Shown: piece by piece, positions 30,733 to 62,200 of the stretch
Layout of the letters: the number at the start of each line of letters is the position of its first letter
Numbering within the stretch: position 1 is the first letter of the stretch
Assembly: GCA_018343915.1 (NCBI GenBank)
Contig: JABRWF010000003.1
Coordinates: 558,001 to 622,000, forward strand
DNA length: 64,000 nt
Direction of reading: 5' to 3'
DNA from: Agroathelia rolfsii
Lineage: Eukaryota > Basidiomycota > Agaricomycetes > Amylocorticiales > Amylocorticiaceae
Made by a program: the position numbers and the translations under genes
Notes under the pieces: generated by a model
What the model was told of the DNA's origin: nothing
Database searches by the model: none
The model's input: the letters and a program-made list of their open reading frames with translations, nothing else

Positions 30733-33700
30733 ATGGGTAGTAAGGATCTATCTCTAGTATGTGCATCAGTCTTGTGTGGGTAACGCGACAGTTAATATCG
30801 CGGCTACACCAGCAGTATGAGAAAACGCTGGTTACTACTGATTATATACCTGATAATAGCCATGACGTTGATATACAAGGCCGGGATGGCTCTGATATAA
30901 ATAGGGCAATAAGTACTAGTAAGATGTCCAATTGCTTATTTGACCGAGTTGGGAAGCAAGGCTGATTGGTTCATACAAGCACCAGTGCAGGTTGCTGTGG
31001 AGGGACAGGCAATGAATTTCTGGAAGAAATATCAGGAACTTGGCAACATTGAAGATCTCAATACGGCAATATTTTTTGGATGGAAAATCATCAATTCGAT
31101 GCCAGTCATTGTTGTGGATTTGGACAAGCTGGAATATCCGCGAAATCTGGCAATGTTTCTCAATGAGAGGTTTGACTATTCAGGGAGCCAGGATGACTTA
31201 GACGATGCGATTTCCCTACAACAGTGGGCGATTGAACTAATGCCTGAAGATACATCTTTTACTCCAGGTCACTTAAATGTACTTGCGGGTTCTTTGCTTA
31301 GACGCTTTGATAAGTTTGGAGAGCTAATTGATCTCGAAATTGCGGCTTCGTTCTTGGAACAAGAAATCAATACCAGTCTTGACGGTAATGCTTATGAGCC
31401 CAGTTGCCTAAGAAATCTGGGAAACTTATTGGTCAGGCAATTCGAGCGACTTGGTACAGCGTCAGATATCGATCAGGCTATTCTGATGCAGCAGCTGGCG
31501 GTAGATCTCACTCCTGATGGCCATAACGATAGATCAAGTTATTTGAATAGTCTGGGGAACTCATTTCTCACCCGATTTGAACAATTTGGCGATATAGCAG
31601 ACGTTGACCAGGCCGTTCTGATGCAGCAGCAGGCTCTCAGTTTTACACCTGATGGCCACATTAGGAGAGTCAGCCGTTTGAATGACTTAGGGAGTTCTCT
31701 TTATAGTCGATTTGAGGAAGTTGGTGAAGTAGCAGATATCGATCGAGCCATTCTGGCACAGCAGGAGGCCGTAGAGCTAACCCCTGATAAGAATATTGAC
31801 AAACCGGGCCGACTGAATAATCTAGGGAATTCATTCCTCAGACGATTTGAACAATCTGGCGAAGGGGAAGATATTGATCGGGCCATTCAGGTACAGCAGA
31901 AGGCTGTTGATCTCACTCCTGAAGAACATGCCAAGAAACCCAGTCGTTTGAACAACTTGGGGAGTTCGTTTTTCAGGCGATTCGAAAAATTTGGGGGAAA
32001 AGCAGACATAGACAAGGCAATCTCGACCCAGCAACAGGCCATTCATCTCACACCCGACAATCATGCCAACAAGCCCGGTCGTTTAAACAATCTTGGGGGC
32101 TCATTCCTTAGGCGATTCGAGAGATTCGGCGAAATGACAGATATCAACCAAGCAGTTCTGGCGCAGCAGCAAGCCATTGATCTCATGCCTGACAACCACG
32201 CCAGCAAACCCGCCTGCTTGAACAACTTGGGGAACTCATTTTCTAGCCGATTCAAGCGACTTGGCAATGTGACCGACATTGACCAGGCAATATTGGTGCA
32301 GCAGCAGGCCATCAAAGCCATGCCTGATGGTCATGCCAGCAAACCTGCTTGTTTGCATAGCTTGGGGAATTCCTTTTGCAGCCGATTCGAGAGATTTGGT
32401 AGAGTGGTGGACATTGATCAGGCAATTCTAGTACAGAAGAAATCCGTCGATCTTACGCCCGATGACAACGCAAATAAACCTAATCGTTTGAACAATCTAG
32501 GCGGCTCATTCCTTAGCCGATTCGAGCAGTTTGGAAAAGTAACGGATATTGACCAAGCACTTCTCCTACGGCAGAAGGCTATTGACCTTACGCCCGATGA
32601 CCATGTTAACAAATCTGCTTTTTTGAACAATTTAGGAAATACTTTTCTCAAGCGATTCGAACGATTCGGAAATGCGGAAGACATTGACCGGGCAATACTG
32701 ATGCAGCAGCAGGCCGTTGATATTGTGTCTGATGTTCACGCTAACAAGCCCCATCATCTGGACAATTTAGGAAGTTCATTTTGCAGTCGATTCGAACAGT
32801 TTGGAAGGGTGGTAGACATAGACAAGGCGATTCTGGTGCAGCGTCATGCGGTTAATCTCATTCCTGATGACCATGCCGACAAACCCAGCTGTTTAAACAA
32901 CTTGAGTGGTTCGTATCTCAGACGATTCGAGAGGTTTCATGAAGCGATAGATCTTGATCAGGCCATTCTGATACAGCAGCGGGCTGTTGATCTCACACCC
33001 AATGGCCATGCGGATAAACCCGGTCATTTAAGCAATTTAGGGAATTCCTTTTGCAGCCGATTTGAGCGCTTTGGCGGAACGTCAGACATAGATCAAGCAA
33101 TTATAGCTCAGAAACAGGCTGTTAATCTTATACCTGATAACCATGCCGACAAGCCCGCGTGCCTAAACAATTTAGGGAGCTCATTTCTCAGGCGATTCGA
33201 GGAATTTGGAAAATTAGCGGATATTAACCAAGCAATATCGGCTCAGCAGTGGGCTGTCGATCTCACACCCGATGGTCGTGCCGATAAACCTACTCGTCTG
33301 AGCAATCTCGGAAATTCGTTCCTTGGTCGATTTCAGAAATTTCACAATACTGCAGACATTGATCAGGCAGTAATGGTGCAGCAACGTGCAATTAATCTTA
33401 CACTTGATGGGCATGCCTACAAAGCTAATTACCAAAAAAATCTGGGCCATTCGCTAACAGCTCACTTTAAGCATACTTCAAACAACACTATCTTGCAAAA
33501 AGCTCTCTCTTGTTTTTCAGCTTCTGCTTCATCCTCAAGTGGGTCGCCTCATGTTCGTCTCGACTCAGCTCGTTATTGGGCTCTGCTTGCAGCTGATTCT
33601 TCGCTTCCTGACCTGGACCCAAATCTCACATCACTCCAGGCATGTCACGTCCTTATGGAGCTCATCCCACGCGTTGTATGGATGGGAAACTCTATCGATC

Positions 33701-35424
33701 TTCGATATCAAGATATCGCATCTATTGGCAATGATGTTAATATGGTGGTGTCAATTGCGTGTTCATCTAGTCGTTATGATCTTGCTGTTGGGTGGCTTGA
33801 GCAAGGTCACTCCATAGTGTGGAATCAAATGTTGCACCTTCGCACACCTATTGACAATCTTCAACATGACCATCCAGAACTTGCTACTTCACTTAGAAAA
33901 CTTTCCTGCGTTATCGAACGACTTGGCGCCGATATTAACCAAAATCCTCCCGCCTACCTAAATGCATACAATCGTGATAATAGTATATCGCTTGAACGGA
34001 CTGCTCAGGAGCATCGTCGACTTGCAGAAGAATGGGAAAACTTACTTTATAGAGCTCGGCAATGCCCCGGGTATGAGAGTTTTTTACGACCAAAAATGCT
34101 TGCAGAGCTTTGCCTTGCCACTGTGACCGGTCCTATAATCTTTGTGAATATTGAAGAGAGGCGATGCGATGCGCTTATTCTACGAAATATTGAGGGTTCC
34201 ACTCAGGTCGATCACGTCCATTTATTACTCGCATCGTTAAAGAAGATTCAGTCGGCATATAAATTCTTTGCCTATTTCCTGAGTAATGATGGCTTCAAGG
34301 CTCGGACTTGTGACATTCGTAAGTACATACAGGATTCTCAAGTATTAATCCTTACTGAGGCCCTATTATCTCTCAACAACGCTGTATAATAAGCAGAGCA
34401 CCTCGATTCTAGGTACCAATATGAAGCCGATGGCACCGGTAATCGTGCTTCTTTCGCCATTTCTTCTCAGGGGGAGATGAAAGATATTCTTGAGATGCTC
34501 TGGGATACGATTGTTGAGCCTGTAATTCAGAAGCTTGGCTATATGGTACACCTTCCTCTGGTCGGGTTTGCTTATGCTTATCTCTCACTATTACCTCTTT
34601 AAAATCAGAAAAACAACCACTCAAAAAACTTACTGGAGCTGCCCCATGTCACATGGTGTAATACGGGTCCGCTTGCTTTCTTACCCCTTCATGCCGCCGG
34701 CCGCTATGACACCAGTCCACCAGCAGCGCATGAGACGGCATACGAGTATATGGTGTCTTCTTACACGCCCAGCTTATCTGCATTGATTAAGCAAAGCGAT
34801 ATGGATGTCAACAAGTTCCATGGGCTCACAGCTATCTCACAACCATCTACCGCCGACCATCGTCTTAGTCGACTACCTGGTACAGTCAACGAAATATCAA
34901 AAATCAAAGGTCTATTCCTCGAAAAAGACTTTACCTGGCTAAACGAATCAGAATCAACTAAAGAAACCGTCCTGGAGAAGATGAATCAGTCTAGTTGGTT
35001 GCATCTCGCTTGTCATGGTGTCCAAAGGAAGGATAATCCAATGGCTAGCGCATTCTTGCTTCACGATGGACCATTGGATCTCCACACGATCTCTCGGCAA
35101 AATCTACCTAATGCTAGGCTCGCCTTTCTTTCTGCATGCCAGACCGCTACAGGCGACGAAAACTTACCAAATGAAGCAGCCCATCTTGCAGCTGGGCTGC
35201 TAATGGCCGGGTATCATTCCGTGATTGGCACAATGTGGTCCATCAAAGACCAGGATGCGCCTCTTGTTGCTGAAGAGTTCTATAAGTACTTAGTCGCTCG
35301 CAATATGAAGACAAGTGGTGGAGGGACGGCATATGCTTTGCACGAAGCAGTTAGGTGGCTGAGGGAGAAAATTGGAGTAAATCAATTTGCCCGGTGGGTT
35401 CCGTTCATTCATATTGGTGTTTGA
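30733..35424 (+). CDS. TPR-repeat CHAT-domain (caspase-like) protein
   Basis: Five exons from ATG 30733, introns 30757-30812, 30919-30979, 34319-34396 and 34546-34608, all GT-AG, joining in frame to 1,477 residues. After a short N-terminus come about 17 tandem 45-residue repeats (31.16-33.46 kb) of the form DIDQAI..QQ.AV.LTPD.HA.KP..LNNLGNSFL.RFE.FG, a long TPR type. A helical linker (33.5-34.3 kb) follows. The C-terminal CHAT domain holds the catalytic pair: His in WLHLACHGVQ and Cys in FLSACQTATG, then AGYHSVIGTMWSIKD. CHAT domains are clan CD peptidases related to caspases and separase. In bacteria TPR-CHAT proteins are activated proteases, and Agaricomycetes have large families of unknown role. 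It borders the transposon island. Confidence 0.9.
31158..33462 (+). repeat. 135-bp coding tandem repeat of the TPR-CHAT gene
   Basis: About 17 in-frame units of 135 bp (45 codons), each starting near the RRFE.FG segment. Units are 60-80% alike, and alternate units sharing NSFCSRFE.FG at their borders point to later duplication of two-unit blocks. The period never leaves the frame. Confidence 0.85.
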
Positions 35425-37298: not shown

Positions 37299-38185
37299 TG
37301 TTGAAAGATATGCATATTTCAATATATCCAATCTTTCTAAATATTCCAATGAATACTTCAATAAATCAGTTTATATCTCATCTATCACTATTATTTATTT
37401 CAAGAATTTACAACTATTAGTTGTGGAGATATAAAGCAATTATTCATTCACTTTATTCTGAATATTTCCGAAATATATTCATATTTCAATATTCATTTCT
37501 TAAAATCATTTAAATATTCATTTTAAATATCTTTTGTTTAAACAATTCACTTTACTTACTAATACACGATTGTGATTATAAATCAGCTTATAAATCACAC
37601 AAATAAATTAGTAATCACCTTCAAAGATATTAGTAATATTTGAGATATATTACTAATATCACTTTCCTATTCATTCAAATATTCAATTTGCTTATAAATA
37701 CTATACTTAGCTTACAAAGTGGATTTGTCAGCATAAACCTTACACTCTTTGCTTAACAAGCAGATTACTTAAGCAAAGACATTGCTTACAAATCCTTTAG
37801 AAATTAGAATATTTTGTAGTATATAAACCCTAGCTAAATCAGCTGTAAAATATAAGTTATTTCACTCGAAAATAGTGAGTTAAATAGTCTACAAGACTAG
37901 CTCCAAGAGTACTAACTTCACCCCAGACTTACCAAGTCTACAAGATAAGAGAATAAGCCTTTCCCAAGGGAAAACAAGTAGGTAGTCTCAAAGGGACACT
38001 GGCTACAGTCTTATCTATAGTATAGCAAAGTTACTAATCGCTTCCTACCTAGGAAACCTTGCCTAATCTTAGGAAACTATTCAAGCCTATACTTTTCACA
38101 CAAGTAAGTGTTTGCTTTATAATAGGTAACTTGTGAGCTAGCATATAGCTACACTATACAACCCAAGAACTACCATAGTTTAATA
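37299..38185 (+). mobile_element. Copia-family solo LTR A
   Basis: 887 bp, TGTTGAAAGA to TTTAATA (terminal CA decayed to TA), flanked by CTACT at 37294-37298 and 38186-38190. It belongs to a subfamily whose left part differs from that of the complete element. Confidence 0.88.
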
Positions 38186-38325
38186 CTACTATAAGCAGCA
38201 CTAAGCACGCTTATAACCCCTAAGCACAGAGTAAAGAGGATTTGTGAGGGGGAGGGGAAAGAAGGAGATAGGGACTCTAAAGACAAAGATTTTATTATGT
38301 TAGTTAACTACTAGATATAAAGTAC

Positions 38326-39355
38326 TGTTGAAAGATTGAATATTTACAGGCTTCATATCTTTCCAATAATTCCAATGAATACTTCAAATAATCATCTAAC
38401 ATCATATCATACATGATTATTTATTTCATGATTTTACAACTGTTCATTGTTGAGATATTAACAATTCTTTACATACATATATTCATTGAAATAATATGCA
38501 TATATTCTTTTATTTAATATTTTCAATATTTCATTATATCTAATCTTATCAGAGATAAGATTATCATATCTGAAGTCACTTGACTTTATCATTTATGAAT
38601 ATCTTTTTCATAAATATTAAACAATTCTATTTAAATATTCATTTCTAAATAATCATTGTGAATATTACTAATTGATTTTTCACGCCCTAGATCCTTGCTT
38701 ATAAATCACCAAAATATTTACTAAGCAAATTCATAATATTAGTAATATTTATAAAATATTACTAATACAGATCTAATAATAGGATATTGAGATCAATAGA
38801 CATTTTACTTACTAATACTATACAAATTACTTACTAAGCACACAGATTGCTTACCAAGCATATTATTCAGCAAATAGGAATATTACTAAGCTGATTTATA
38901 AGCTGATTTGTAAGCAACCCTTCTTACTAAGCGGATTAGATAAGCACAGGATTGGCTTACTAATCTTGTAGAAATTAGAATATTTTGTATTATATAAGCA
39001 CCAGCAAATTCGGCTGGAAATGACAAGTTATTTCACTCGAAAATAGTGAGTTAAATAGTCTACAAGACTAGCTCCTAGAGTACTAACTTCACCAACAGAC
39101 TTACTAAGTCTACTACAAGACAACAAGCCTTTCCTAAAGGGAAAACAAGTAGGTAGTCTCAAAGGGACACTGGCTACAGTCTTAACTCAGGTGTAACAGA
39201 GTTACTAATTGCTTTCACAAATAGGTTTTATTGCCTTTAAACCTATAACACCACAGACCATTAACTTTTCAAACAAGTAAGTTAGTTGTCTTTTAAATAG
39301 GTAACTAGTAGATTACAAGTAGTCTACATTACACTATTACCACTAACTTTCAACA
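38326..39355 (+). mobile_element. Copia-family solo LTR B
   Basis: 1,030 bp, TGTTGAAAGATT to TTTCAACA, flanked by AGTAC (38321-38325) and AGCAC (39356-39360); the uninterrupted family sequence has AGCAC. Close in sequence to the LTRs of the complete copia element. Confidence 0.88.
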
Positions 39356-39534
39356 AGCACTATTGTGCTTATCTGAAGACAAAGAGAACAAATCTGGGGT
39401 CTTTAGGTAGAGGCACTATAGGGTTATATACTAATTCTACCTAGTCTGTGCACCTGGTACATAGTCTGTGCATAGAAGTGCTAAGTATAATGCAATATTA
39501 CACTATAGTGAGTCTATGATGGTGTCATGTTCTA

Positions 39535-40135
39535 TGTTAAGTCTTGGACAGACGGAGATAGCAGAAAAGGGAAGGGGCGGAGCGGAACGGAAACGGAGAT
39601 GGAGTAAACAGGAGTAGAGATGGGAGAGTGGATAGGAAAGGAGAGGGGTGACCAGACTTGGCCAAGACATATGTGTCAGGCCCTTGCCTAGTTGCGGTCC
39701 GGGACAGGAGTTAGACAGGAGAAGGGGAACTAAGTTGATTTCCAAACTGAGGTAGCTAGGTACATGCTAGGTTGGTATAAATACTATAGTAGCAGGAGGA
39801 TACCAAGAGGAATAGAAATAAAGTGAGATAGAGAGTAGGAAACAGAATATGGGGCGCAAATGGGCTGAAACTATCTATGTAAACAAGGGTACTAGAACGT
39901 GTAGGGAAAATGATGGGAAAACAGGATACGTGAGAAGAGGAAAAGACTCCGGGACTCCAGTTGGGCGCCAAGCAAGGGGTCACTGGTTCCAATGCCCAAA
40001 TTGCGGAGGGCGGAGAGCAGAAGTTGGGAGCCAGAGAGGTGTCTTTAGTTATTGGATGATAGTGGGCAAGGGTGAGTGAGGACATGTCAGAAATGTTGAA
40101 GTGGGAGCCACTTGTGCGCGGAGGGGGTTGTGACA
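39535..40135 (+). mobile_element. 601-bp solo LTR S
   Basis: TGTTAAGTC to GTGACA, flanked by TTCTA at 39530-39534 and 40136-40140. It contains a TATAAATA motif near 39776. Much more GC-rich than its surroundings. A second copy lies inverted at 42601-43201. Internal element not present in the window. Confidence 0.8.
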
Positions 40136-41219
40136 TTCTAGACCTATGTTCTAGACCTGCTTTACATAATAAGTCACATGACTAGTGGTTACATAATGGC
40201 CAGTCACATGATGACTGATCACATAACTTTGCTTAGTCATCAGAGTACTTACGTAATGTCTGCTTATATAATATATATGTTATATACCAAAAAATAGAGA
40301 AAAATCAGAGAAAAATCAGAAAAATAATGAGAAATCTTAAATAAATTTATAGTATATAGATTGACTCATAACAAAGACAAAGAGAACAAATCTAGGGTCT
40401 TCAGGTAAAAACACTACAGGGTTATATACTAATTCTACCTGGTCTATACACTTGGTACATGGTCTATGCATGGTAATACTAAGTATAATGTGATATTGCA
40501 CCATAATGAGTCTATAATGATGTCATAGTCTAGACCTATACTCTAGGCCTTGCTTACATAATATATCACATGACTAGTGGTTACATAAGGGCCAGTCACA
40601 TGATGACTAGTCACATGACTTGCTTAGTTATCAGAGTGCTTATGTAATGTCCACTTATATAATATACATATTATATACCAAAAAATTGAGAAAAATCAGG
40701 AAAAATTCGGAAAAATAATAAGAAATTCTAAATAAATTTATAGTACATAGATCGACTCGTAACACTATTGTAGTTCTTAGGTTGTATAGTGTAGCTATAT
40801 GCTAGCTCACAAGTTACCTATTATAAAGCAAATACTTACTTGTGTAAAAAGTGCAGGCTTTGGATTGTTTCTAAGATGAGGCAAGGTTTCCTAGGATGGG
40901 AAGCAATTAGTAACTATGCTATACTGAAGATAAGATTGTAGCCAGTATCCCTTTGAGACTACCTACTTGTTTTCCCTTGGGAAAGGCTTGTTCTCTTATC
41001 TTATAGACTTAGTAAATCTGGGGTAAAGTTAGTACCCTAGAAGCTAGTCTTGTAGATTATTTAACTCACTATTTTCAAGTGAAATAACTTATATTTTATA
41101 GCTGATTTAGCTAGGGTTTATATACTACAAAATATTCTAATATCTAAAGGATTTATAAGCAATGTCTTTACTTAAGTAATCTGCTTGGTAAGCAAAGAGC
41201 ATATGGTTTATGCTAATAA

Positions 41220-42251
41220 TGTTGAAAGATTGAATATTTACAGGCTTCATATCTTTCCAATAATTCCAATGAATACTTTAAATAATCATCTAACATCATG
41301 TCATACATGATTATTTATTTCATGATTTTACAACCGTTCATTGTTGAGATATTAACAATTCTTTACATACATATATTCATTGAAATAATATGCATATATT
41401 CTTTTATTTAATATTTTCAATATTTCATTATATCTAATCTTATCAGAGATAAGATCATCATATCTGAAGTCACTTGACTTTATCATTTATGAATATCTTT
41501 TTCATAAATATTAAACAATTCCATTTAAATATTCATTTCTCAATAATCATTGTGAATATTACTAATTGATTTTTCACGCCCTAGATCCTTGCTTATAAAT
41601 TACCAAAATATTTACTAAGTAAATTCATAATATTAGTAATGTTTATAAAATATTACTAATACAGATCTAATAACAGGATATTGAGATAAATGGATACTTT
41701 CACTTACTAATACTATACAAATTACTGACTAAGCACATAGATTGCTTACCAAGCATATTATTCAGCAAATAAGAATATTACTAAGCTGATTTATAAGCTG
41801 ATTTGTAAGCAATTTTCCTTACTAAGCGGATTAGATAAGCACAGGATTGGCTTACTAATCTTGTAGAAATTAGAATATTTTATATTATATAAGCACCAGC
41901 AAATTTGGCTGGAAATGATAAGTTATTTCACTCAAAAATAGTGAGTTAAATAGTCTACAAGACTAGCTCCTAGGGTACTAACTTCACCCTAGACTTACAA
42001 AGTCTATAAGACAAGATCAGAAGCCTTTCCCAAGGGAAATTAAGTAGGTAGTCTCAAAGGGACACCGGCTATAATCTTATCTTAAGTATAGCAAAGTTAC
42101 TAATTGCTTCCCACCTAGGAAACCTTGCCTATTCTTAGGAAACACTACAAGCCTGCACTTTTCACACAAGTAAGTGTTTGCTTCATAATAGGTAACTTGT
42201 GAGCTAGCATATAGCTACACTATACAACATAAGAACTACTATAGTTCAATA
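41220..42251 (+). mobile_element. Copia-family solo LTR C
   Basis: 1,032 bp, flanked by AATAA at 41215-41219 and 42252-42256, inserted in LTR D. Nearly the same as LTR B and the LTRs of the complete element; the terminal CA has become TA. Confidence 0.88.
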
Positions 42252-42600
42252 AATAAATCTGCTCTGTAAGCTAAGTATAGTATTTGTAAGCAAATTGAAT
42301 ATTTGAATAAATAGGAAAGTGATATTAGTAATATATCTTAAATATTACTAATGTCTTTAAAGGTGATTACTAATTTATTTATATAATTTATAAGCTGATT
42401 TATAATTACAATCATATATTAGTAAGTAAAGTGAATTGTTTGAATAAAAGATATTTAAAATGAATATTTAAATGATTTTAAGAAATGAATATTGAAATAT
42501 AAATATATTTTGGAAATATTCAGAATAAAGTGAATGAACAAATTGTTTTATATCTTTATAACTAATAGTTGTAAATTCTTGAAATAAATAACAGTAATAG

Positions 42601-43201
42601 TATCACGACCCCCTCTATGTACAAGTGGCTTCCGCTCCAACATTTCTGGCATGTCCCTATTCACCCTTGCCTACTACCATCCAACAACTAAAGATACCTC
42701 TCCAGCTCCTAACTTCTACTCTCCGTCCTCTGTAATTCAGGCGTTGGAACCAGCCACCCCTTGCTTGGTGCCTAATTAGAGTCCCAGAGTCTTTTCCTCT
42801 TCTCACGTACCCTGTTTTCCCATTATTTCCCCCACATGTTCTAGTACCTTTATTTACATAGATAGTTTCAGCCCATTCACACCTCATATTCCATTTCCTA
42901 CTCTTTGTCTCACTTCATTTCTATTCCTCTTGGTATCCTCCTGCTACTATAGTATTTATACCAACCTAGCATATACCTAGCTACCTCAGTTCAGAAATCA
43001 ACTTAGTTCCCCTTCTCCTATCTAACTCCTGTCCCAGACCACAACTAGGCAAGGGCCTGATACATACGTCTTGGCCAAGTCCAGTCACCCCTCTCCTTTC
43101 CTATCCACTCTCCTATCTCTACTCCTGTTCACTCTATCTCTGCTTCTGTTCCACTCTACCCCTTCCCTTTTCTGCCATCTCCGTCTGTCTAAGACTTAAC
43201 A
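42601..43201 (-). mobile_element. Second copy of 601-bp LTR S, inverted
   Basis: Reverse complement of the 39535-40135 element, ending ACTTAACA. Its two flanks (copia LTR D on the left, gypsy pol on the right) are unrelated and show no duplication, so a deletion or recombination joined them. Confidence 0.75.
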
Positions 43202-44048
43202 CCTATAAGAATATAATTTTGTATTATGTTATAAAAAAGGATCAACCAATGGATGAGCTGATACCCTATCTAGAAGACTGGATTTTTATACCAAAGACTC
43301 CTAGGATAACCTCAATATCACTATACTCTAATCCTCCCACTTCTGTTATAAGATGGCAGACATGCTATTGTAGGATGACTGACATATTTTCTATGTAAAC
43401 AGATATATTTCTATGGGTTGGCAGTATACCTCTAATTTTTCCTTATTTTTCTCTATTTTTCTTATGTTTTTATCTTTTGATTTGAGTATACAGGATATAC
43501 TTCTTTATTTTCTAGTTTCTTGTTGTATTGTTTACATGGTACTATATTACATTTAGATATAATTCTAGATTTTTTGATATATATTATTGATTTCCTTCTT
43601 TAATCATTGATGCTTCTTTCATCTTTGATCTTTTCTCATACTATACTTCTGTTCTAACTCCATTGATCCTTTTCCTTTTCTTTCTTCTATTTCCCTTGAT
43701 ATGGAGTTAAGGACTATTCTTAGAATACTTGTAACTAGTATATAAAGGCCTGCCTTTAGGGCCTTTGCAATCCAGCTTAACTACTTTGTCTTTGTCTTTG
43801 TCTCTGCCCTTATTACTTGTGTGCCTTAGTGCTTTACTCTGTGCTTAGTACTCTGTCTTAGTCTCTTTGGGCTTCTTCTCTTGTAGCTACCTATATGAGC
43901 TTATAAGAGGAGTGTGCTAGTCAGCAACCTATATAAGCTGTACTATGCCTTGTCCCTTAGTGGTACTCACTCATACTTATCCCCACTCTCTCTTTTGTGT
44001 GTTTTATCACTCTTTCCACCATCATAATACACCTGGACCCCAAGGTTA

Positions 44049-45079
44049 TGTTGAAAGATTGAATATTTACAAGCTTCATATCTTTCCAATAATTCCAATG
44101 AATACTTCAAATAATCATCTAACATCATATCATACATGATTATTTATTTCATGATTTTACAACCGTTCATTGTTGAGATATTAACAATTCTTTACATGCA
44201 TATATTCATTGAAATAATATGCATATATTCTTTTATTTAATATTTTCAATATTTCATTAAATCTAATCTTATCAGAGATAAGATTATCATATCTGAAGTC
44301 ACTTGACTTTATCATTTATGAATATCTTTTTCATAAATATTAAACAATTCCATTTAAATATTCATTTCTCAATAATCATTGTGAATATTACTAATTGATT
44401 TTTCATGCCCTAGATCCTTGCTTATAAATCACCAAAATATTTACTAAGCAAGTTCATAATATTAGTAATATTTATAAAATATTACTAATATAGATCTAAT
44501 AATAGGATATTGAGATCAATAGACATTTTACTTACTAATACTATACAAATTACTTACTAAGCACACAGATTGCTTACCAAGCGTATTATTCAGCAAATAG
44601 GAATATTACTAAGCTGATTTATAAGCTGATTTGTAAGCAACCTTCTTACTAAGCGGATTAGATAAGCACAGGATTGGCTTACTAATCTTGTAGAAATTAG
44701 AATATTTTGTATTATATAAGCACCAGCAAATTCGGCTGGAAATGACAAGTTATTTCACTCGAAAATAGTGAGTTAAATAGTCTACAAGACTAGCTCCTAG
44801 AGTACTAACTTCACCCTAGACTTACAAAGTCTACAAGACAAGACAACAAGCCTTTCCTAAAGGGAAACAAGTAGGTAGTCTCAAAGGGACACCGGCTACA
44901 GTCTTATATTAAGTATAGCATAGTTACTAACCGCTTCCTACCTAGGAAACTTTGCCTATTCTTAGGAAACCACCCAAGCCTGCACTTTTCTCTACAAGTA
45001 AGTGTTTGCTTCACAACAGGTAACTTGTGAGCTAGCATATAGCCACACTATACAACCCAAGAACTACGATAGTTCAACA
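44049..45079 (+). repeat. 5' LTR of the copia element
   Basis: TGTTGAAAG to TTCAACA, 1,031 bp. TATATAAG at 44713-44720 predicts transcription start near 44,745. Downstream are three short hairpins (44778-44792, 44818-44832, 44851-44866). By my count only about 8 CG dinucleotides occur in the LTR. Confidence 0.93.
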
Positions 45080-45095
45080 GGTTATGAGCCCTGCC
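45080..45095 (+). other. Primer-binding site, half-tRNA type
   Basis: GGTTATGAGCCCTGCC directly after the LTR. The first 15 bases are complementary to the anticodon stem-loop of eukaryotic initiator tRNA-Met, as in Drosophila copia and yeast Ty5, where a cleaved half-tRNA primes. The CAU anticodon forces an ATG (45084-45086), which here opens only a four-codon frame. Confidence 0.85.
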
Positions 45096-45151
45096 TAAAA
45101 AGGCAGTCAGTATAAAACAGGAGTAGCTAACTAAATAATTCCCTTTTCTAG

Positions 45152-47724
45152 TGTCTTTCCAATCCAACACTGCCTCTTTCAACCTTGTTATTGCCCAGGC
45201 AATCAATTCTGCCAATCAGGTTGCTATCGCAGAAACCCTTGATCAGCAGATCATCGAGGATCAAGAGATCGACCATCAGTGGCTTCTAGATCTCAACAGT
45301 AAGCACAGATAAGGAAATACTAAATTAGGAAACTGATATATCTTCCTAATCAGGCTACCCATCGCCCTCCAGCCCCTCTATCAAATCAGAAGACCTAGAG
45401 GAGGTCCCAAGCCTAGTAACTACAGGCAACTACAAAGAGGAGGAAAACCTTGAAGACATCAACAAGGAGATTACCCAGTTTACCACTGAAGAAGAATTCC
45501 AGTGGATTGACTATCAAGCTTTCACCAATAGCTTCGAAGACATAAGAAGAGAATCCCCCTCCACATACATTTCTATCCTAACAGATCTTGAAATTCAAAA
45601 CAAGTGGAAGTGTATAGAAAGCGTTAGGGATTACATCACAAGAGAAATCACAGAGCAACAAGACGTCTGGTGCAGACACTTCAACATCCCATCGACAGGA
45701 CCCTGTTGGACAATCAAGGATATTTTTGAGGAAGCAGCAAGATACAACCCAGAGGAGGAATACATCTATCCAGACCCCCTCACTCTCACTTCCTCAGATT
45801 TAGAACTATCTACACCATCATCGGTTTCTGAACCAGTAAGCAAACTAAAATTAATTTTAGTAGAAGCTTATTGACACAGAAAAATATACACAGCTCTCCC
45901 CAATCTCTTCATCTTCATCTTCATTAGAGGAAGGAGAAATCAGAAGCCCTAAGGACAAGTCAGTTAAAGACGTCCAGGTGAATCTTATCAAATTTATTAA
46001 ATCCTCCTCATTCAAATCCTTATACCAGGAACTTAAACAGTTACCTGAGTTCAACGTTGACGATACAGAAACTTGGGGATCCAGTCAGTCTAGACCATAC
46101 ACACCTTGGTCAGTAGGCAATAGAGAGCTCAACGACTGGGCAAAAGAAGAAATTACTCCCAAGGCTATAGACTCATCGTCATCCACACAAGGTATTTAAT
46201 TACCATACATCACAATCAACTAGATAAGCTAACCAAGCTTTAGTTGAACAAGAATCCCTCCTTCAGTTTGCATTTAAGACTGTAAACGTTCTTGAAGCAA
46301 CAGTCAAGCACCAGTCAGCCCAACTTTCCTGGTACAAAAGTTCCCTGGAAGACCTTACCAAGGAATTACGAGGACTCTCATACTCCTTAGGTTGGAACCA
46401 GGAGATCCAGAAAGGAGTAGCTGCAAAGGCAGAAGAAGAAAGGAAGGAGATTCATCGATTGATTAATCATCAGGCAGGTAGACTCTTCGAGATCGATTAC
46501 CACCAGAGGGATTTCAACAAGAAGTACACTGGTGAGCTAAAAGAATTCAAGGATTGATTCGAGGCCCAGACTAGGAAAATCCTAGAAAACCAAACTGGAA
46601 CGTCTCACAGAGGTGGTAGAAGGCTTACAAGTAACAGATTCACCCCTTATTAGAAGTCTTATACTTTTAGTACTACAAGTCCTACTAGTACTAGAAAAAT
46701 CTTTACGCTTCAGTCTTTACCTCTTCTTTTATATTTTTGTCTTGAGCCTTGAATTTTTATACAACCTTATATCTGCCATTTCAAGTTTCATTGCATCAAT
46801 CATTTCACTTATTTTTGAATTTTGTGCAACTGTACTTTTGTGAAAGTAGCCAAGTCTTAGCTACCACAAAAATCAAACATTGTATTTGTGATTCTTTGAT
46901 TTTCAATAAGCCCAACATAAGTCTACTAAGGATTTTTATTTTCATACTAAGAATTCTTCAGGTATACTATAAACTTAAAAACAGGCAAAATATTGGCATC
47001 AGAGAAAACACAATATCACCACAACTCTACAGGTGAAGAATCACCTCAAACTCAAATTCCACTTGAGTTTGAAGAAATCACTCCTCCTAAGAAATTAAGT
47101 AAAACTTCACTTAAATACTTAGCAAAGAGGAACAAAAAGAAACTTCGAAGAGAAGGGCATATCACCCTTAAATCTCATTGGGAAACATATCACAAAGATT
47201 TCCCTACACCATCCAGAAACCCAGAATTATACCTGGAAATAAAGAAATTCCTATTTGACAGTACCAAATATAATTGGGAAAAAGTCAGTCAGGATTTCCA
47301 GAATAAATTCTTCACTCTCTGTGCAGAAAGAATAATTCTTGCAAGAGTATTCGGAAGATTTGACAAAGTCGAACCCTTCACATTTCCAGACAAAGAAGTA
47401 AGAGGAAACTCTCAAAACCATACAAGGTATCTTATCAAAATCACTCCAACGCCTCATAATTGGAGTATACCATACTTCACACCGGAGGAAATTGAAGACA
47501 AAGTTAGTCTTACAGATATAGAGAGATTAGACAATATAATCTACCTCTATAATTCAGGACATTGGGATAGCATACATCCAGGTCCAAACCTTAAAGACTT
47601 TAAGGAATTCCTAGAAAATCATCACAAGGAATACCTTGAAACAAGCCTCAACAGGATCATAGAAAATTATAGCATATATCTATATCCTATCGAAGACAGC
47701 TTTATATCCTGGGAATTTGTATAA
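45152..47724 (+). CDS. Spliced, methionine-free 5' ORF of the copia element
   Basis: Exons 45152-45298, 45354-45835, 45894-46191, 46238-46531 and 46985-47724 join without a stop to about 652 codons; introns of 55, 58, 46 and 453 bp all have GT-AG ends and matching phases. CTAAC and a pyrimidine tract precede the AG at 45150-45151, so exon 1 itself begins at an acceptor. Neither I nor any motif identifies the protein: an N-terminal acidic part (IIEDQEIDHQWLLDL), a coiled-coil-like exon 4 (KELRGLSYSLGWNQEIQKGV) and a basic-then-globular exon 5 (KYLAKRNKKKLRREGH). It contains no Met at all, so the start is unknown. It stops at 47722-47724, six bases before gag-pol in the same frame. It could be an accessory protein made by splicing and non-AUG initiation. 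Confidence 0.6.
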
Positions 47725-47730
47725 GTCAAA

Positions 47731-50700
47731 ATGACTGAAATACTTATAAAAGATATACCCTCAGGATTTCCTGTTTTCAACGGTTCAAATTGGGCCAAAT
47801 TCTCAGTTAAATTTTATTTCCTAGCCAAGTCATTGCGCATTTGGACAATGTTCTCTAAAGGATTACCTAAGGATGATCCTACTCCCTTACAAAAACCAGA
47901 TCTCAAGCCAGCAGAAATTCTACCACAAGAATTAGCTTCAGCTGCAGGGATTTCTTGGGGAGAAGACAAAAAAATCATTCTAGCTAATGCATGGGATCAA
48001 GCAGATGATCGTGCAAAGGGTTTACTTGGAGGATGTGTAAATGAAACTTGGGCAAATATTTTAATGGCTGAAGAAACAGCTGCTAAAATGTGGAATAAAA
48101 TTTATACAGCGGCAAAAGCTCAAAGACTTGCAGAAGGTCAAAGATATCATACTGAGTTCTACTCCTACAGACTCAGGACTGATAAATCAATGGCTACACA
48201 AATCTCAGAAATGCAAGAAATACAGACAAGAGCCAATGCTACAGGATTATCTATTGGAAAAAAAGATTTCATCTCACGCATAGGAGAAATACTTCCAGAT
48301 TCATACCGCATGATTTGGGGTAGTATTCTAAGAGCAGTGGGAGGTTACGAAAAGGCCACAATAGACTTAATCCGGGGAGAATTGCAGCAGGAACAAACCA
48401 TACGTGAATCTCTCCACACTAATAATAAATCTCAAAGCAGGTCCAATATGTCTAAAGGCCAAAGAAAATTCAAAAAGAAATTTAAAGGTCAAGACAAAAC
48501 AAATAGTCAGGAGTCAGATAACAAAAACTATTGCAAAAAGTGCAAAAAGTATGTTAAACATACTACTGACAAACACATAGACAATTGGAAACCTCTTAAT
48601 CGAAAAAATACAGGAAAGAAAAACTATGGTGGAAAATCCAAAACAAATCAAAGAACAGAAGAAGTTGAAGGCTCTTCCGATGAAGGAATAAATACTTCAC
48701 TCTCTCTGTATCAAACAGAAAAAACACAGGATGATGAATTCTTTTACCTAGTTGATTCAGGTACTAGCCATCACTCCACATTTGATTTAAAGGATTTTCA
48801 CCAGTACAAACCATTTCCTCCTGAAAAACAAAAATACACAATCATCTCAGATGGCACCAGACTCCCAATTAAAGGGATAGGTACTGTCAAAATCAAACAC
48901 ATTGATTCCAGTGGGAGAATACATGTACTCGACATTACAAATGTCAGGTATATTCCAGACACTAGAGAAAGATTACTATCCCCTCAACAAATTTCACAAA
49001 AAACAAATGGGATATGGATCATTGGAAAATCTGGAAAAACCATGGAATTAATGATCAACAAAAAAAAGATTCTAAGCGCATACATCAACCTAAACAATAA
49101 TTTTGAGTTTAGAGGATCAATCACACAAAGTCAACATGCAAAATCTTTGCATAGCTCAGAAGAAACACCCTATGAATTAATTCATCAAAGATTTGCACAC
49201 TCAGGTAGTGATGTTATCCATAAAATCTTAGGAAACACCATAGGTGGACCTAAAAATATAGGAAAGACATCTTATGAAACCTGTGAAGGTTGTGCACTAG
49301 GGAAATCTATCAGAGCACCACATTTTCCATCTCCAGAGCGTACTAAAAACCCAAATGATTTGGTACACTCAGACTTATACTCACTTCCAGTAAATGCCAT
49401 CCGGAGTAACATAAAATATGTTGTGACATTCCTAGATGATGCCACTTCATATTGCACAATGTACTTCATATCATCAAAAGATGAAACCCTTGAAGTATTT
49501 AAAAAATATGTTACATGGTCAGAAAGGCAATCTGGAAATAAGTTAAAAACTATCAGATCAGATAGAGGTGGAGAATATATGTCAAAAGATTTTGACAAAT
49601 TTCTCAATGACTTTGGTATTTCTAGAGAAACTTCTATTCCGCATACACACCAACAAAATGGCAGAGCAGAAAGAGTTCAACGAACCATCCATGAAAAAGC
49701 TGAAGCCATTAGGAAAACTGCTGGAATGAAAGAAGGATTTTGGAAAATATCCATGGAAGCGGCACTATACACCTATAACCGTACACCTACCAGAGTTCAA
49801 TCCTGGAAAACTCCATATGAATCTTGGTATAGAAAACAACCAGATATATCAAGGATACGGGTATTTGGATGCCAGGCATGGATGACTATTCCAAAGGAAG
49901 GTAGAAAAAATAAACTTTCAGACAAAGCCAGAAAAACAATTTTCATAGGATATCCAGAAGGTTCCAAAGGTTGGAGACTTTATGATCCAATTACTGGAAA
50001 GATATGGGATTCATACGATGTTAAGTTCGATGAACACATATTTCCTATGAAAGAAAAGAAAAAGGCTCAATATATGCTACCTCAAAACAATGAGGCAGAT
50101 ATATCAGGTTCTGAAACTACCTCAGAAAAAATACTTTATCCTCGAAAACAAAATGAATACATAGACATAGGGAATATAACAAACCCTATCTCTACAACAG
50201 ATGAAGAAGAAGATATTTCATATCTTGAAGAGTTAAGAGATACTGAAATACGTGACAAAGAGCTAGAGCCAGATAGTATTTCTGGAGCACTTGGAAGAAC
50301 AGGCAGATTTGGACCACTTGGAGATTTTTCTGAAGAATATTTCCCAGGTGAATCCCAAACACCAGAAGCAAACATAGATCCTGGAGAAACAAGTTGACCT
50401 AGAAGAGAAAAGAGACCTAATCCCAGATATAAAGACTATGTCACTTCAAGCCAAATTGAACCAGTTCAACCAACTATAAATCATCTGCTAACATTGGCTG
50501 CAGACGTCGAAAATATTCCCAGAACATATAAACAAGCAATGAATTCACCTGACCATGAAAAATGGGAAGAAGCTATGAAAAAAGAAATGGATTCATTAAA
50601 ATCTAGGGATGTTTACGATCTGGTTAATAGACCCAAAAACAAGACAATCCTCAAAGGAAAATGGGTTCTAAATATTAAATCAGATGGACGTTACAAAGCT

Positions 50701-52077
50701 AGATATGTTGCTAGAGGAGATTTACAAACAAATGATACATTCGATGACACTTGGTCACCAGTCGCAAGATATGAGGCATTCAGAGTTTTACTTGCAATTG
50801 CCACATATAGTGATTGGGAAATTGACCAAATGGATGTTACCACTGCATACCTTTATGGAAAACTTAACCATGAGATTTACATGGAACAACCTACAGGTTT
50901 TTCAGTCAAAGGAAAAGAAGATCAAGTCTGCAAGCTTAAAAAATCCCTCTATGGATTAAAACAAGCAGGCAGACAGTGGAATTTTGAAATACATTCAACA
51001 CTTGAAAAAATGAATTTCAAAAGAACACACTCAGATGCAGGTATCTACATAAACCATCAACAAGTGGGAGACCCAAATGATAAAATCATTCTCATTTTAT
51101 ATGTTGATGATTTATTAATCATGGGAAAAGTGAAAAAGCGAATTCAAGACTTTAAGAAAAAACTCATGGAAAAATATGAAATGAAAGATCTTGGAGAAGC
51201 TAAATCATTCCTAGGCGTCAATATCAATAGAAACAGGAAAAAGAAATTACTGTCTATTGATCAAAAAGATTACTGTGAAGGTATTCTAAAGAAATTCCAA
51301 AAAGAAAAATCAAAAGGATATTCTACACCGATGTCAGCAAGCATCCAACTCAAATCTAACCCTAACCAAGTGACAGAGGCCAATAAAACCCACTACAAAA
51401 GCATGATTGGTTCACTCACATTCTTAACCATCATAACTAGGCCAGACATCACTTTTGCTGTAAACAAATGTGCGAAGTACAGTGAAAATCCTGGAAAAGA
51501 GCATTTCACTGCAGTAAATCATATATTCCAATACCTATCCAAAACCCCGGATAAAGCCATTGTCTATCAAGGACAACACCCAAAAGAATTAACCGCATAT
51601 TCAGATGCAGATTGGGCAATGGACTTAGATGACCGGAAATCTACAACTGGATACATTACCATGATGTGCAAAGGTGCAACTTCCTGGTCAACCAGAAGAC
51701 AACACACCACTGCATTATCTAGTGTAGAAGCTGAATATATGGCTCTCACAGAAGCAGCAAAACAAGTTAAATGGTTACGGAAACTACTAAATGACATAGG
51801 TGAAGATATATCTAACCCAACAACTATTTTTACAGATAATCAAGGAGCTATTAGCCTAGCCAATAACCCTAAACATGGTGGTAGAGGTACTAAACACATT
51901 GAAGTTAGGCATCACTTTATCAGAGAAACAGTCTCCGATGGTACTGCTAGGACTGAGTATATTAATACTAACCAACAACTAGCAGATGTTTTAACCAAGC
52001 CTTTGGCAGAAACAAAGCACAGCTATTTTTCAAATTTAGCTGGACTAACAAATGATCTTAGATGGTTAAAGCAATAA
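47731..52077 (+). CDS. Copia gag-pol polyprotein with one internal TGA
   Basis: ATG 47731 in a good context (CAAAATGA). Order: Gag; an atypical zinc-knuckle-like C-X2-C-X5-H-X4-H (YCKKCKKYVKHTTDKH); aspartic protease FYLVDSGTSHHS; integrase zinc region ending CEGCALGK; integrase core with HSDLYSLP, IRSDRGGEY and RAERVQRTIHEKAE (DDE); copia box RVFGCQAWMTIP; RT with YVDDLLIMGK; RNase H with SDADWAMD and SSVEAEYMAL. A TGA at 50395-50397 interrupts the frame between integrase and RT; otherwise 1,449 codons are open. The TGA is either a CGA-to-TGA transition or lies in a possible 60-bp intron (50348-50407) that would keep the frame. All enzyme motifs are intact. Confidence 0.9.
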
Positions 52078-52096: not shown

Positions 52097-53127
52097 TGTT
52101 GAAAGATTGAATATTTACAAGCTTCATATCTTTCCAATAATTCCAATGAATACTTCAAATAATCATCTAACATCATATCATACATGATTATTTATTTCAT
52201 GATTTTACAACCGTTCATTGTTGAGATATTAACAATTCTTTACATGCATATATTCATTGAAATAATATGCATATATTCTTTTATTTAATATTTTCAATAT
52301 TTCATTAAATCTAATCTTATCAGAGATAAGATTATCATATCTGAAGTCACTTGACTTTATCATTTATGAATATCTTTTTCATAAATATTAAACAATTCCA
52401 TTTAAATATTCATTTCTCAATAATCATTGTGAATATTACTAATTGATTTTTCATGCCCTAGATCCTTGCTTATAAATCACCAAAATATTTACTAAGCAAG
52501 TTCATAATATTAGTAATATTTATAAAATATTACTAATATAGATCTAATAATAGGATATTGAGATCAATAGACATTTTACTTACTAATACTATACAAATTA
52601 CTTACTAAGCACACAGATTGCTTACCAAGCGTATTATTCAGCAAATAGGAATATTACTAAGCTGATTTATAAGCTGATTTGTAAGCAACCTTCTTACTAA
52701 GCGGATTAGATAAGCACAGGATTGGCTTACTAATCTTGTAGAAATTAGAATATTTTGTATTATATAAGCACCAGCAAATTCGGCTGGAAATGACAAGTTA
52801 TTTCACTCGAAAATAGTGAGTTAAATAGTCTACAAGACTAGCTCCTAGAGTACTAACTTCACCCTAGACTTACAAAGTCTACAAGACAAGACAACAAGCC
52901 TTTCCTAAAGGGAAACAAGTAGGTAGTCTCAAAGGGACACCGGCTACAGTCTTATATTAAGTATAGCATAGTTACTAACCGCTTCCTACCTAGGAAACTT
53001 TGCCTATTCTTAGGAAACCACCCAAGCCTGCACTTTTCTCTACAAGTAAGTGTTTGCTTCACAACAGGTAACTTGTGAGCTAGCATATAGCCACACTATA
53101 CAACCCAAGAACTACGATAGTTCAACA
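52097..53127 (+). repeat. 3' LTR of the copia element
   Basis: 1,031 bp; no difference from the 5' LTR found on reading both through. Followed by the duplication GGTTA. Confidence 0.93.
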
Positions 53128-53361
53128 GGTTAAGGGGATATAAACAAGTCCCATCTAGTTAAGGGACTATAAATATGCTAGATTATTGAGTGTTACTTAG
53201 GAAAGTGACCTTACTTGTAGGAGACCTTGCATTCAGGTCTTAAAATATAGATAGCACCTCCTAGCTAGGGGAGAATAAAGATATTAGTATGGTTCCTTTG
53301 CTAGCCTTCCAGGCTAGTCTGGTTAGGTTTAGCTAAGTTATGAGGATCTTATAACAACTTC

Positions 53362-59212: not shown

Positions 59213-62200
59213 CTGTATATGATGCAAAAGTGAACCTCATGAAGGAGGAGATATTGTCCAATAGGAGATATTGGTACAACAATAACCCACAAGTAGATCT
59301 CCAGCGTAGTAACCTAGATGCTATAGATATTTCGGCAAAAATCTTGGGAGGGAAACCCAAGTTATCAAAAAACCCATTTACAAGTGTAGGATCTGCCTAG
59401 CAATCCTCCCTGTTGCAAGTAGCTGCAATGCAAAATCAACCTGCTACCACATCCAACAACCCTTTTCAACGGAATGATATTATATGTTACAACTGTTAGA
59501 AAAAGGGGCACATTGCAAGAGACTATTAAAGCCCTAAAGTAGACAGGGTTAAAACCAATAACCCATTCCAAAAGGTAGCTACGGCTTCATCAACAACGCT
59601 AATGCCAATACCGGTAGTAGATAGCCAGAATTCCTCCACTATGATGCAGCAAGACATGCTTAATATGCTATAAGAACAGGGTCAAATGATTGCAGCCCTT
59701 AAAGACAAGTTGGGTTTTTAGAACAGTTAAAGTATAAGGCCAATGCTTCTGGCCATTATGTATAAAATAGAATTTCTTCTTTCTCTATTTCTTCTTCACT
59801 TTCAATTTCTTCTTCCACTGTACAAGGTATAAATAGACAACACCTGAAAATTCCTCTTATGTTCCATGGACATTTCTCTACCATTTCTATTTCTGCAATG
59901 ATTGATTCGGGAGCTTCTTCCACTTTTATTAACAAAAAATTTATAGACAAGAATAATATAAAAACACTAAAATTACAAAAACCAATTCCTCTGTACAATA
60001 TCAATAATTTACCCAATGCAATTGGATTTATCTCAGAATATGTCATACTTTTAACCCAGATAGGTACAGAATGACAAAGGCTAGTCTTCTTAGTAGTAGA
60101 TATTGGTACAGAGGATGTAATCCTAGGTATTGATTGGCTACAACTAGAAAATCCTCTTATCAACTGGAAAAAAGGGTATGTTACCCTAATGGATGATTTA
60201 TTAAAAGATGAGGAATATAAAAAAATAAATAAAATTATAAAAGATGAAGACTCTCCTTCATTATTAGCAGCAACCTTGGAATTACTGCCTCAATACCAGG
60301 AATATGCCAAAGTCTTCTCCAAAGCAGAATCTCAATGGTTCCCTACTAGCAAACCCTATGATCACAAAATAGAGTTAGTAGAAGGAGCTAAAATGAAGAG
60401 GGCTAAGGTATACCCATTATCAATCCTAGAGTTGAAAGTATTGGATGCATATTTGGAGGAAAACTTGGCTAAAGGATATATAAGAAAATCACAAAGTCCT
60501 TATGTATCTCCCTTTTTCTTTATCCCAAAGAAGAACGGGAAACTTAGGCCTATAGTAGATTATCATTGACTTAACAATATCACAATAAAAAACTCCTATC
60601 TACTTCCTCTAATCTCCTCTATTGTGGATGGACTCTCTCAGGCAAAAGTATTTACTAAATTGGACTTACGATGGGGATACAATAATGTCTTGATTAAAAA
60701 TGGATATCAAGAACGAGCAGCCTTCATAATACCCCGAGGACTGTTTGAACCCCTAGTAATGACCTTTGGTCTATGCAATGCCCTGGCCACCTTCCAAGCT
60801 ATGATGGACAAAATATTTACAGACCTAATTGCACAAGGATTAGTATATATCTATATTGATAACATTATAGTTGCTACAGCCAGCCTAGAAGAATACCAGC
60901 ATTTAGTGTATGAAGTACTCAAGAGATTAGCAGAAAATGATCTTTTTGCTAATTTGGAAAAATGCCTATTCGAAGTCATGGAAGTAGAATTCCTAGGCGT
61001 AATAATTGGCTACAATCGAGTATAAATGACCAACAAAAAAGTACAAGCCATTTTTGACTGGCCAACCCCTACAACAGTTAAGGATGTTCAAAAGTTCAGA
61101 GGTCTAGCTAACTATTACTGACAATTTATCAAAGGGTTCAGTGAGATTACTAAACCCCTAGATAGATTAACTGGTAAAGGCACTTGGAAATGGGAAAAGG
61201 AGGAACAAGAATCATTTGACTATCTCAAGAAGGCTTTTACTACTGCCCCAGTATTAGCTATCTATGATCACCAGCAAGAAATTTGGATTGAAACAGATAC
61301 CTCAGGATATGCAACAGGAGGAGTATTCTCCCAGTTGCAGGATGATGGTGAATGGCACTCTATTGCCTTCCATTCCAAATCTATGGATAATGCATAAAGA
61401 AATTATGACATCTGGGATAAGGAAATACTTGCAATTATTCAAGCACTAGAAGAATGGTACTACTACATTATTGGGTTACCTAAACCGGTAGAGATCTGGT
61501 CTAACCACAAAAACCTAGAATATTGGGCAACAAGTCAACACCTAAGCCGTCGATAAGCATGTTGGTATCAGATCCTATAAGAATATAATTTTATATTGTG
61601 TTACAAAAAAGGATCAACCAATGGATGAGCTGATGCCCTATCCAGGAGGCCGGATTTTTATACGGAAGATTCCCAGGATAATCTCAATGTTACTATACTC
61701 CAATCCTCCTACTTCAAAGTAATGGCTGCTAAAAGAGGACATATACTAGTTAAAGGCAAAAAGGAAATCTTGGCAGAATTAGAAGGGAGAGCACCAAGTT
61801 GCTGGAATCCCTCTATCAGATTGTTAAGATTGGCCCACAACGGATTACACTAGGATTGTAGGATTGGGAAACAGAGGATAGATTGGTTTTATACAGAGAA
61901 AAGGTCTTTATGCCCCCAAAAAGGGAACTCAAAGAAAAGATTATGGCTAAATACCATGATTCAGCCCTTGCTAGTCATCCCAGGTGTACAAAAACATTAG
62001 AGCTTATTAGCAGAAACTACTACTGGATTAACATGACAAAAGAAATAAACCAGTATGTAGACTCTTGCTTACTCTGTCAAGCAAACAAGCCAAGCCGACA
62101 AGCATTGCCTGGACTCCTCCAACCCTTACCTATACCTGGAAAACCATGGGAATATGTTACCTCAGATTTGATAGTCAAACTACCTAAGTCACAAGGGTTT

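Follow-up and report, generated by a model that had tools for sequence, protein, structure and literature searches.

The window, that is, the whole 64,000-nt stretch of Agroathelia rolfsii DNA that was analysed, carries on its plus strand an element bounded by a 5' LTR (TG...CA, 44049..45079) and a 3' LTR (52097..53127), both 1,031 bp long and identical with 0 mismatches. The 5-bp target duplication GGTTA is present at both element flanks (44044-44048 and 53128-53132) and, together with the identical LTRs, indicates that the insertion is recent. A TATA box (TATATAA, 44713..44719) is present in 14/14 aligned upstream regions, family 3 (see below) among them, and the cap site probably lies near 44745. 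The primer-binding site (PBS) GGTTATGAGCCCTGCC (45080..45095), a putative complement of the CAU anticodon region of the initiator tRNA, adjoins the 5' LTR. The gag-pol frame consists of a first open part with Copia gag and integrase (47731..50397), which is ended by an in-frame stop (50395-50397), and a second open part with the RVT_2 reverse transcriptase (50398..52077). In Pfam, gag was identified as Copia-type (PF14223, E 1.9e-11), and rve (E 1.3e-12) precedes RVT_2 (E 9e-70), which is the Copia order. Based on gag, the integrase located before RVT_2, the LTR pair, the target duplication and the PBS next to the 5' LTR, the element is a Ty1/copia LTR retrotransposon (Pseudoviridae). Caulimoviridae by definition have no LTRs or integrase and possess a reverse transcriptase other than the Copia (RVT_2) type; here LTRs, integrase and RVT_2 are all present, and the element does not belong to that family.

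Two frames upstream of gag-pol and their relatives in the genome

The stretch between the PBS and gag-pol (45087-47730), which the preliminary description had taken for a plain untranslated leader, is mostly coding, a point absent from that description. This part of the earlier reading was wrong, as the stretch contains two protein frames, both conserved, along with small GT-AG introns and a predicted split start codon. Frame A, with ∼445 codons in five exons in the window, was delineated from stop-to-stop frames without ATG, GT-AG introns and comparison with the copy L012. Exon 1 (R-U5, 44745..44997) contains no AUG, and its final base, an A, would open the split start codon. Predicted intron I (44998..45151) has a donor GTAAGT in U5, a branch-like GCTAAC and an acceptor TTCTAG. 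Exon 2 (45152..45298) begins with TG and would complete A|TG to give AUG UCU UUC. It is followed by intron II (45299..45353), exon 3 (45354..45835), predicted intron III (45836..45893), exon 4 (45894..46191), intron IV (46192..46243) and exon 5 (46244..46653), the stop of which is aligned with the family 2 stop (...RFTPY*). A U-rich spacer without ATG (46654..46992, 40% T) separates A from frame B (46993..47724), which encodes 243 aa from a proposed UUG (AUA UUG G) and stops 6 nt before the gag-pol AUG. The window copy is broken, with a premature in-frame stop in A (46555-46557) in addition to the stop in gag-pol; the position of this A stop is open in some other copies.

Upstream of the element, related LTR pieces in both orientations are clustered at 37400-43200. 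Elsewhere in the window, frames at 59750-62340 resemble, by eye, a broken Ty3/gypsy pol with reverse transcriptase- and integrase-like parts. A long repeat-rich open frame at 30913-35424 is followed by another frame, which resembles that of a TPR-CHAT protein, and four diverged tandem copies of one gene, presumably alcohol-dehydrogenase-like, are located at 1547-10692.

Relatives were sought in the same genome (37.7 Mb, 8 contigs), and the copy numbers are lower bounds. Many were found, and in some of them gag-pol is open over 1,450 aa. Three families were distinguished: family 1, to which the window copy (L001) belongs, family 2, typified by L012, and family 3 with L029 and L030. The identity of family 2 to the window, taken per 100 nt, is 20-72% (mostly 50-70%) across the leader's initial 2,000 nt, whereas its final 500 nt (47187-47730) are 96-99% identical in L012. 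Because this end is far more alike than the sequence upstream of it, B seems to have been exchanged by recombination between element families. The family 3 gag is 59-61% identical to that of the window type and its B about 30%. A fourth, heavily decayed family is represented by L031 (C2:5089000-5095500), with a gag of 49% identity and a B that is 42% identical to that of family 3. It was considered as a counter-example to the absence of ATG described below, with 44 ATGs in 2.8 kb vs 50 expected, but its B relative has 11 stops and it is uninformative on living elements.

Absence of AUG from the leader and its maintenance

No ATG is present on the plus strand in 45087-47730 (2,644 nt), which bears out the earlier count; the ATGs flanking the empty stretch are located at 44742, 45084 (PBS) and 47731 (gag-pol). 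CAT is frequent in the same stretch, as had been stated, with 48 occurrences. The earlier expectation of ∼40 ATGs was too high and falls to ∼24 once dinucleotides are preserved. In the shuffled null that the preliminary description had proposed as a check, 5,000 dinucleotide shuffles of 45087-47730 contained on average 23.8 ATGs (range 11-38) and zero was never reached. Among the 64 triplets ATG was the most extreme (z -6.0, 1,000 shuffles), followed by TAA (-2.9), and TTG was the most enriched (z +4.5). The 2,647-nt gap is the longest run without ATG on either strand of the window. The PBS AUG at 45084 is the only AUG between the predicted cap site and gag-pol, and it opens a four-codon uORF, AUG AGC CCU GCC UAA (45084..45098), both as previously described. 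The stretch from cap site to PBS (339 nt) is also ATG-free, which is not significant alone since 1,648 of 5,000 shuffles were ATG-free as well; among 23 copies, an ATG between -327 and the PBS AUG was identified only in L006 and L024. The leader shows no depletion of CUG, GUG or UUG in strong context, and therefore near-cognate codons in general have not been purged.

Leader ATGs could be counted at 20 of 28 loci, the other 8, without PBS or gag start, being excluded. Seven leaders contain none (L001, L002, L003, L004, L007, L012, L013). One ATG is found in L005, L006 and L020, two in L018, three in L008, L022 and L023, four in L015, five in L021 and seven in L024. The leaders of L009-L011 contain 21-33; these and L024 have longer leaders of 3.2-4.4 kb. 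The copies with the 1,450-aa open frame (L002, L003, L005, L012, L013) have 0, 0, 1, 0 and 0 leader ATGs, respectively, the gag-pol match of L012 containing a TAG although this copy is listed with the open frame.

For a selection test, the observed substitutions were placed at random with the substitution types kept (1,000 placements). Between the window and L012 (family 2), 757 substitutions at aligned positions would be expected to create 25 ATGs, but none was found (0/1,000). Between the window and L018, 917 substitutions gave 1 ATG at aligned positions vs 28.8 expected. Within families, several copies were inside the random range (found/expected: L015 4/4.2, L021 5/4.5, L023 3/4.0, L020 1/2.4, L006 1/3.0 and L008 3/6.4), whereas L022 (3 vs 9.2, 15/1,000) and L018 (1 vs 14.3, 0/1,000) were below it. 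Close pairs were little decisive (L004 0 vs 2.1, L007 0 vs 2.1, and L013 0 vs 3.8, 20/1,000). The 11 within-family comparisons sum to 21 ATGs vs 56 expected, with shared branches counted repeatedly. Older copies appear to mix a constrained history, when active, with an unconstrained, decaying one, and as such do not provide a clean neutral control. In L005, L006, L008, L015, L018 and L020-L023, 13 of 22 ATG gains, shared gains being counted repeatedly, arose from ACG, suggestive of C-to-T decay at CpG.

In family 3, the leader of L029 contains 5 ATGs compared to 34.9 in shuffles. Four of these are missing from a related copy, L030 or L055; the one common to L029 and L030 lies 66 nt before gag and opens a 10-codon uORF. 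That selection maintains the absence of AUG is well supported by these comparisons, with zero ATGs also in the L012 leader from a second family and several broken copies regaining them at the random rate. The core of the earlier reading, selection against AUG letting scanning ribosomes reach gag-pol, is thus well supported by the shuffles, the between-family comparison and family 3.

Coding frames, introns and a predicted split start codon

Frame A is under coding selection. Comparison of the window with L012 gave pS 0.74, pN 0.31 and dN/dS 0.13, values computed with a superseded family-2 intron IV acceptor and therefore including 6 extra codons. With a pS this high, the AUG-free state has outlived the turnover of nearly all silent sites. 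Synonymous shuffles of A (n = 3,000) contained on average 6.1 ATGs, with zero in 1 of them. After the start of A, Met is encoded by none of the 688 codons in A and B, whereas the first part of gag-pol has 17 Met among its 888 codons (P 1.7e-6). The synonymous shuffles of B were ATG-free in 1,597 of 3,000; codon choice alone thus often gives zero, and the purge in B is visible mainly as missing Met. Each of the three families also has a spacer with no ATG (P 0.036, 0.037 and 0.001), although the sequences are related and the spacer limits in L029 approximate. The introns are too short to show a purge, with 0.4 ATG expected in L012.

The small introns of A are 48-66 nt long, and a branch-like CTAAC or CTAAT precedes most of their acceptors. 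Precise losses were identified in genomic copies for intron II (L005), intron IV (L007) and the family-2 intron IIb (L036/L019, one place). By alignment, L022 lacks II and IV, L023 lacks IV and L024 lacks II, with gap ends ambiguous by at most 2 nt. Among gaps of at least 15 nt in family 2 (12 loci), 5 of 8 coincide with introns and 3 (L017, L018, L025) lie elsewhere. No precise loss of intron III (family 1) or IIIb (family 2) was found among the loci examined. Precise losses of this kind arise by reverse transcription of partly spliced RNA and are fossils of splicing, which makes II, IIb and IV functional introns of the element. The position of the family-2 intron IV acceptor is fixed by the copies that lack this intron. 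A 49-nt family-2 intron (L012:2141-2189) stands where window exon 4 (about 45960-46030) has ∼17 coding codons, and by tblastn family 3 is also coding at this site; judging by the alignment, this is an exon turned intron, or the reverse, within a gene of a retroelement.

Exon 2 contains no ATG, and its frame starts with TG right after the acceptor, while exon 1 ends with A before GTAAGT. Joining the donor ACAA|GTAAGT in U5 to the acceptor CTAAC...TAG|TGTC is predicted to give ACA AUG UC, and removal of 44998-45151 would result in the exon 1-exon 2 junction ACAAUGUC. Intron I spans the end of U5 and the LTR, the PBS and the PBS AUG. From 36 PBS-like rows, 28 distinct places were obtained by merging duplicates and dropping L025:93, which has neither donor nor acceptor. 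The acceptor TAG|TGTC is kept at 28/28 of these and the donor AAGTAAGT at 26/28, the exceptions L006 and L022 having lost four bases there. The splice sites of intron I are common to the three families, family 3 being represented by L029 and L055. A whole-genome search with two queries for the spliced intron I junction found nothing closer than 3 mismatches; at that distance there were 67 and 19 matches, of which 13 and 12 were the unspliced acceptor itself. The missing fossil fits the removal of the PBS ending replication, and is also expected if intron I is not spliced. Use of intron I to build the start codon of A is thus predicted from the arrangement and conservation of its splice sites.

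Frame B is conserved in the three families, with 41 invariant columns among 4 sequences, and is, like A, constrained as a coding frame. Its dN/dS was 0.20-0.37 in 6 of 9 comparisons, 0.59 between the window and L012 and 0.89 between L029 and L030; the comparison of the window with L029 was saturated. B contains no AUG, and the frame opens just 7-14 codons upstream of an aligned NTG. Of 16 copies, 15 carry the triplet of their family at this site (UUG for family 1, CUG for family 2, GUG for family 3), flanked by A at -3 and G at +4; L024 is the copy not aligned there. A pattern search identified this codon in 9 family-1, 12 family-2 (L014/L035 being one place found twice) and 2 family-3 loci; the patterns demanded A at -3 and G at +4 and are therefore no test of that context. 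We infer that B starts at this near-cognate codon under leaky scanning. Alternatively, B might be spliced in frame onto the exons of A and need no near-cognate start, and by eye phase-compatible AGs are present near the start of B in the alignment of families 1 and 3. However, most family-2 copies have no AG from the upstream in-frame stop to the CUG (in L012 this open stretch is AACTTTGGCATAAAAACCTTTATT; L018 and L021 carry substitutions in it), and in family 3 the nearest downstream AG is not conserved, which makes such splicing doubtful, with perhaps one chance in a few. An A|TG junction able to start B was looked for by eye, and no AGTG was found near its start.

Protein searches at E 0.001 with B or spliced family-2 A gave no match. 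As gag residues 1-260 were likewise unmatched, the collection seems to be without this group and the blank says little. Among viral contigs, 19 pattern matches to B were found, none of them a relative. In Pfam neither A nor B matched a family above the cut-off, with PigL_N (E 0.035) and DUF4858 (E 0.21) below it. In the PDB, single B gave two weak matches (E 0.2 and 1.3), and the B and A profiles none at E 1. The AlphaFold model of B alone had a mean pLDDT of 34 and is unusable.

One transcript with two predicted fates

The removal of AUG appears to belong to a device by which one transcript could serve either Gag-Pol or protein A. A single promoter would give a single primary RNA with two fates, the unspliced RNA being both genome and Gag-Pol messenger and the spliced RNA the messenger of protein A; taken as a whole, this is the probable explanation of the leader. 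On unspliced RNA, ribosomes that pass the PBS uORF would scan 2.65 kb without AUG to the gag-pol AUG. They would traverse A without translating it, and a minority may start B at the UUG, CUG or GUG in strong context. On spliced RNA, U5 would be joined to exon 2, A|UG would make an AUG and protein A would be translated. Were A translated every time, AUGs inside it would do no damage; they would harm only ribosomes that cross it untranslated. Because scanning ribosomes must cross both A and B on unspliced RNA, selection would have removed AUG from all three frames of their sequence, and with it the internal Met codons. Removal of intron I would also delete the PBS and leave the fully spliced RNA unable to prime its own reverse transcription, and for this reason intron I would persist in genomic copies. 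We slightly favor the stronger reading that splicing is a start-codon switch, in which one splice assembles an AUG, deletes the PBS and irreversibly turns the genome and Gag-Pol messenger into the A messenger. If so, the price would be that ∼690 codons of two proteins, plus introns and spacer, are kept AUG-free in all frames and that B is started without AUG, and to our knowledge this would be the longest AUG-free scanning path.

A different use of the purge would be reinitiation at gag-pol after translation of A on spliced RNA, with the unspliced RNA serving only as genome. The spacer and B are ATG-free and no AUG is present from the A stop to gag-pol, as this would need, but AUGs inside A would not hinder its translation, and yet they are missing from A to a degree that its codon usage does not explain (zero in 1/3,000 synonymous shuffles). 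Moreover, the part of PMC5902531 on reinitiation describes it as usually failing after ORFs of more than ∼50 codons, and A has ∼445. We consider this improbable. Nor do we give much credence to gag-pol being expressed from a separate subgenomic RNA, from an internal promoter or a splice near gag, with the absence of AUG otherwise caused. Drosophila copia and BARE1 make Gag from spliced subgenomic RNAs, as stated in the relevant part of PMC3735527, and the spacer is U-rich (40% T), but an RNA with a short leader removes the need to purge 2.6 kb, and by eye no acceptor-like site lies directly before the gag AUG. Ribosome shunting or internal entry, with the absence of AUG incidental, is very unlikely. 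AUGs are tolerated in regions bypassed in these ways, and the spacer, which was the only region folded, folds little better than its shuffles (z -1.4, 8/100 at least as good), even if the short PBS uORF recalls the uORF of pararetrovirus shunts (PMC5902531, in the part on these viruses). Chance or strand-biased base composition can be dismissed: the leader is A-rich and CpG-poor, but the shuffles and the between-family comparison refute it, the next ATG-free run is just 948 nt, and the 2.6 kb upstream of the three distant gag matches L032-L034 contain 33, 54 and 50 ATGs, respectively, the true leaders of these being unmapped.

The predicted device has partial counterparts. In rice tungro bacilliform virus (RTBV), according to the account of this virus in PMC5902531, ribosomes reach the polyprotein AUG by leaky scanning over 900 nt through the AUG-free ORFs I and II, ORF I starts at AUU with about 10% of ribosomes, P4 is made from a spliced RNA and the leader contains short uORFs. 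Long upstream ORFs without internal AUG, as in RTBV and the badnaviruses, and a leader uORF are found here too. Unlike RTBV, the element is an integrated Ty1/copia element, its AUG-free stretch, at 2.65 kb, has roughly three times the length scanned in RTBV, introns interrupt the upstream gene A, whose AUG is apparently made by splicing, and neither A nor B has a Pfam match above the cut-off. Within Ty1/copia, according to the BARE paper (PMC3735527, in the part on RNA use), a retrotransposon has to keep its spliced RNA from being reverse transcribed, and in BARE1 and Drosophila copia, too, part of the RNA serves as genome and part as spliced mRNA. Their splicing, as described there, limits expression to Gag, whereas in the present element it would supply A with its start codon and delete the PBS. 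Other LTR retrotransposons also have additional conserved ORFs besides gag-pol (PMC7264820, PMC5408684); the extra ORFs here precede gag, contain no internal Met or AUG, and A is spliced. The Gypsy env is likewise a protein of an LTR element made from spliced RNA, but in another superfamily and from a gene downstream of pol, as outlined in part of PMC4276936. Among open-licence papers, no Copia element with an AUG purge or a splice-made start codon was found.

Conserved proteins such as A and B are missed by ORF finders that demand an ATG: the listing of ATG-started frames of at least 100 aa contained neither. Broken copies show the lapse of constraint, and copies lacking introns document splicing at the DNA level. 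The AUG purge is a natural test of the distance over which ribosomes scan. It has long been asked how retroelements apportion one RNA to translation and replication, and here an answer may be readable from DNA, because the PBS, the uORF AUG and the split start codon all lie in or around one predicted intron, so that one splicing event would settle which of its two roles the RNA takes.
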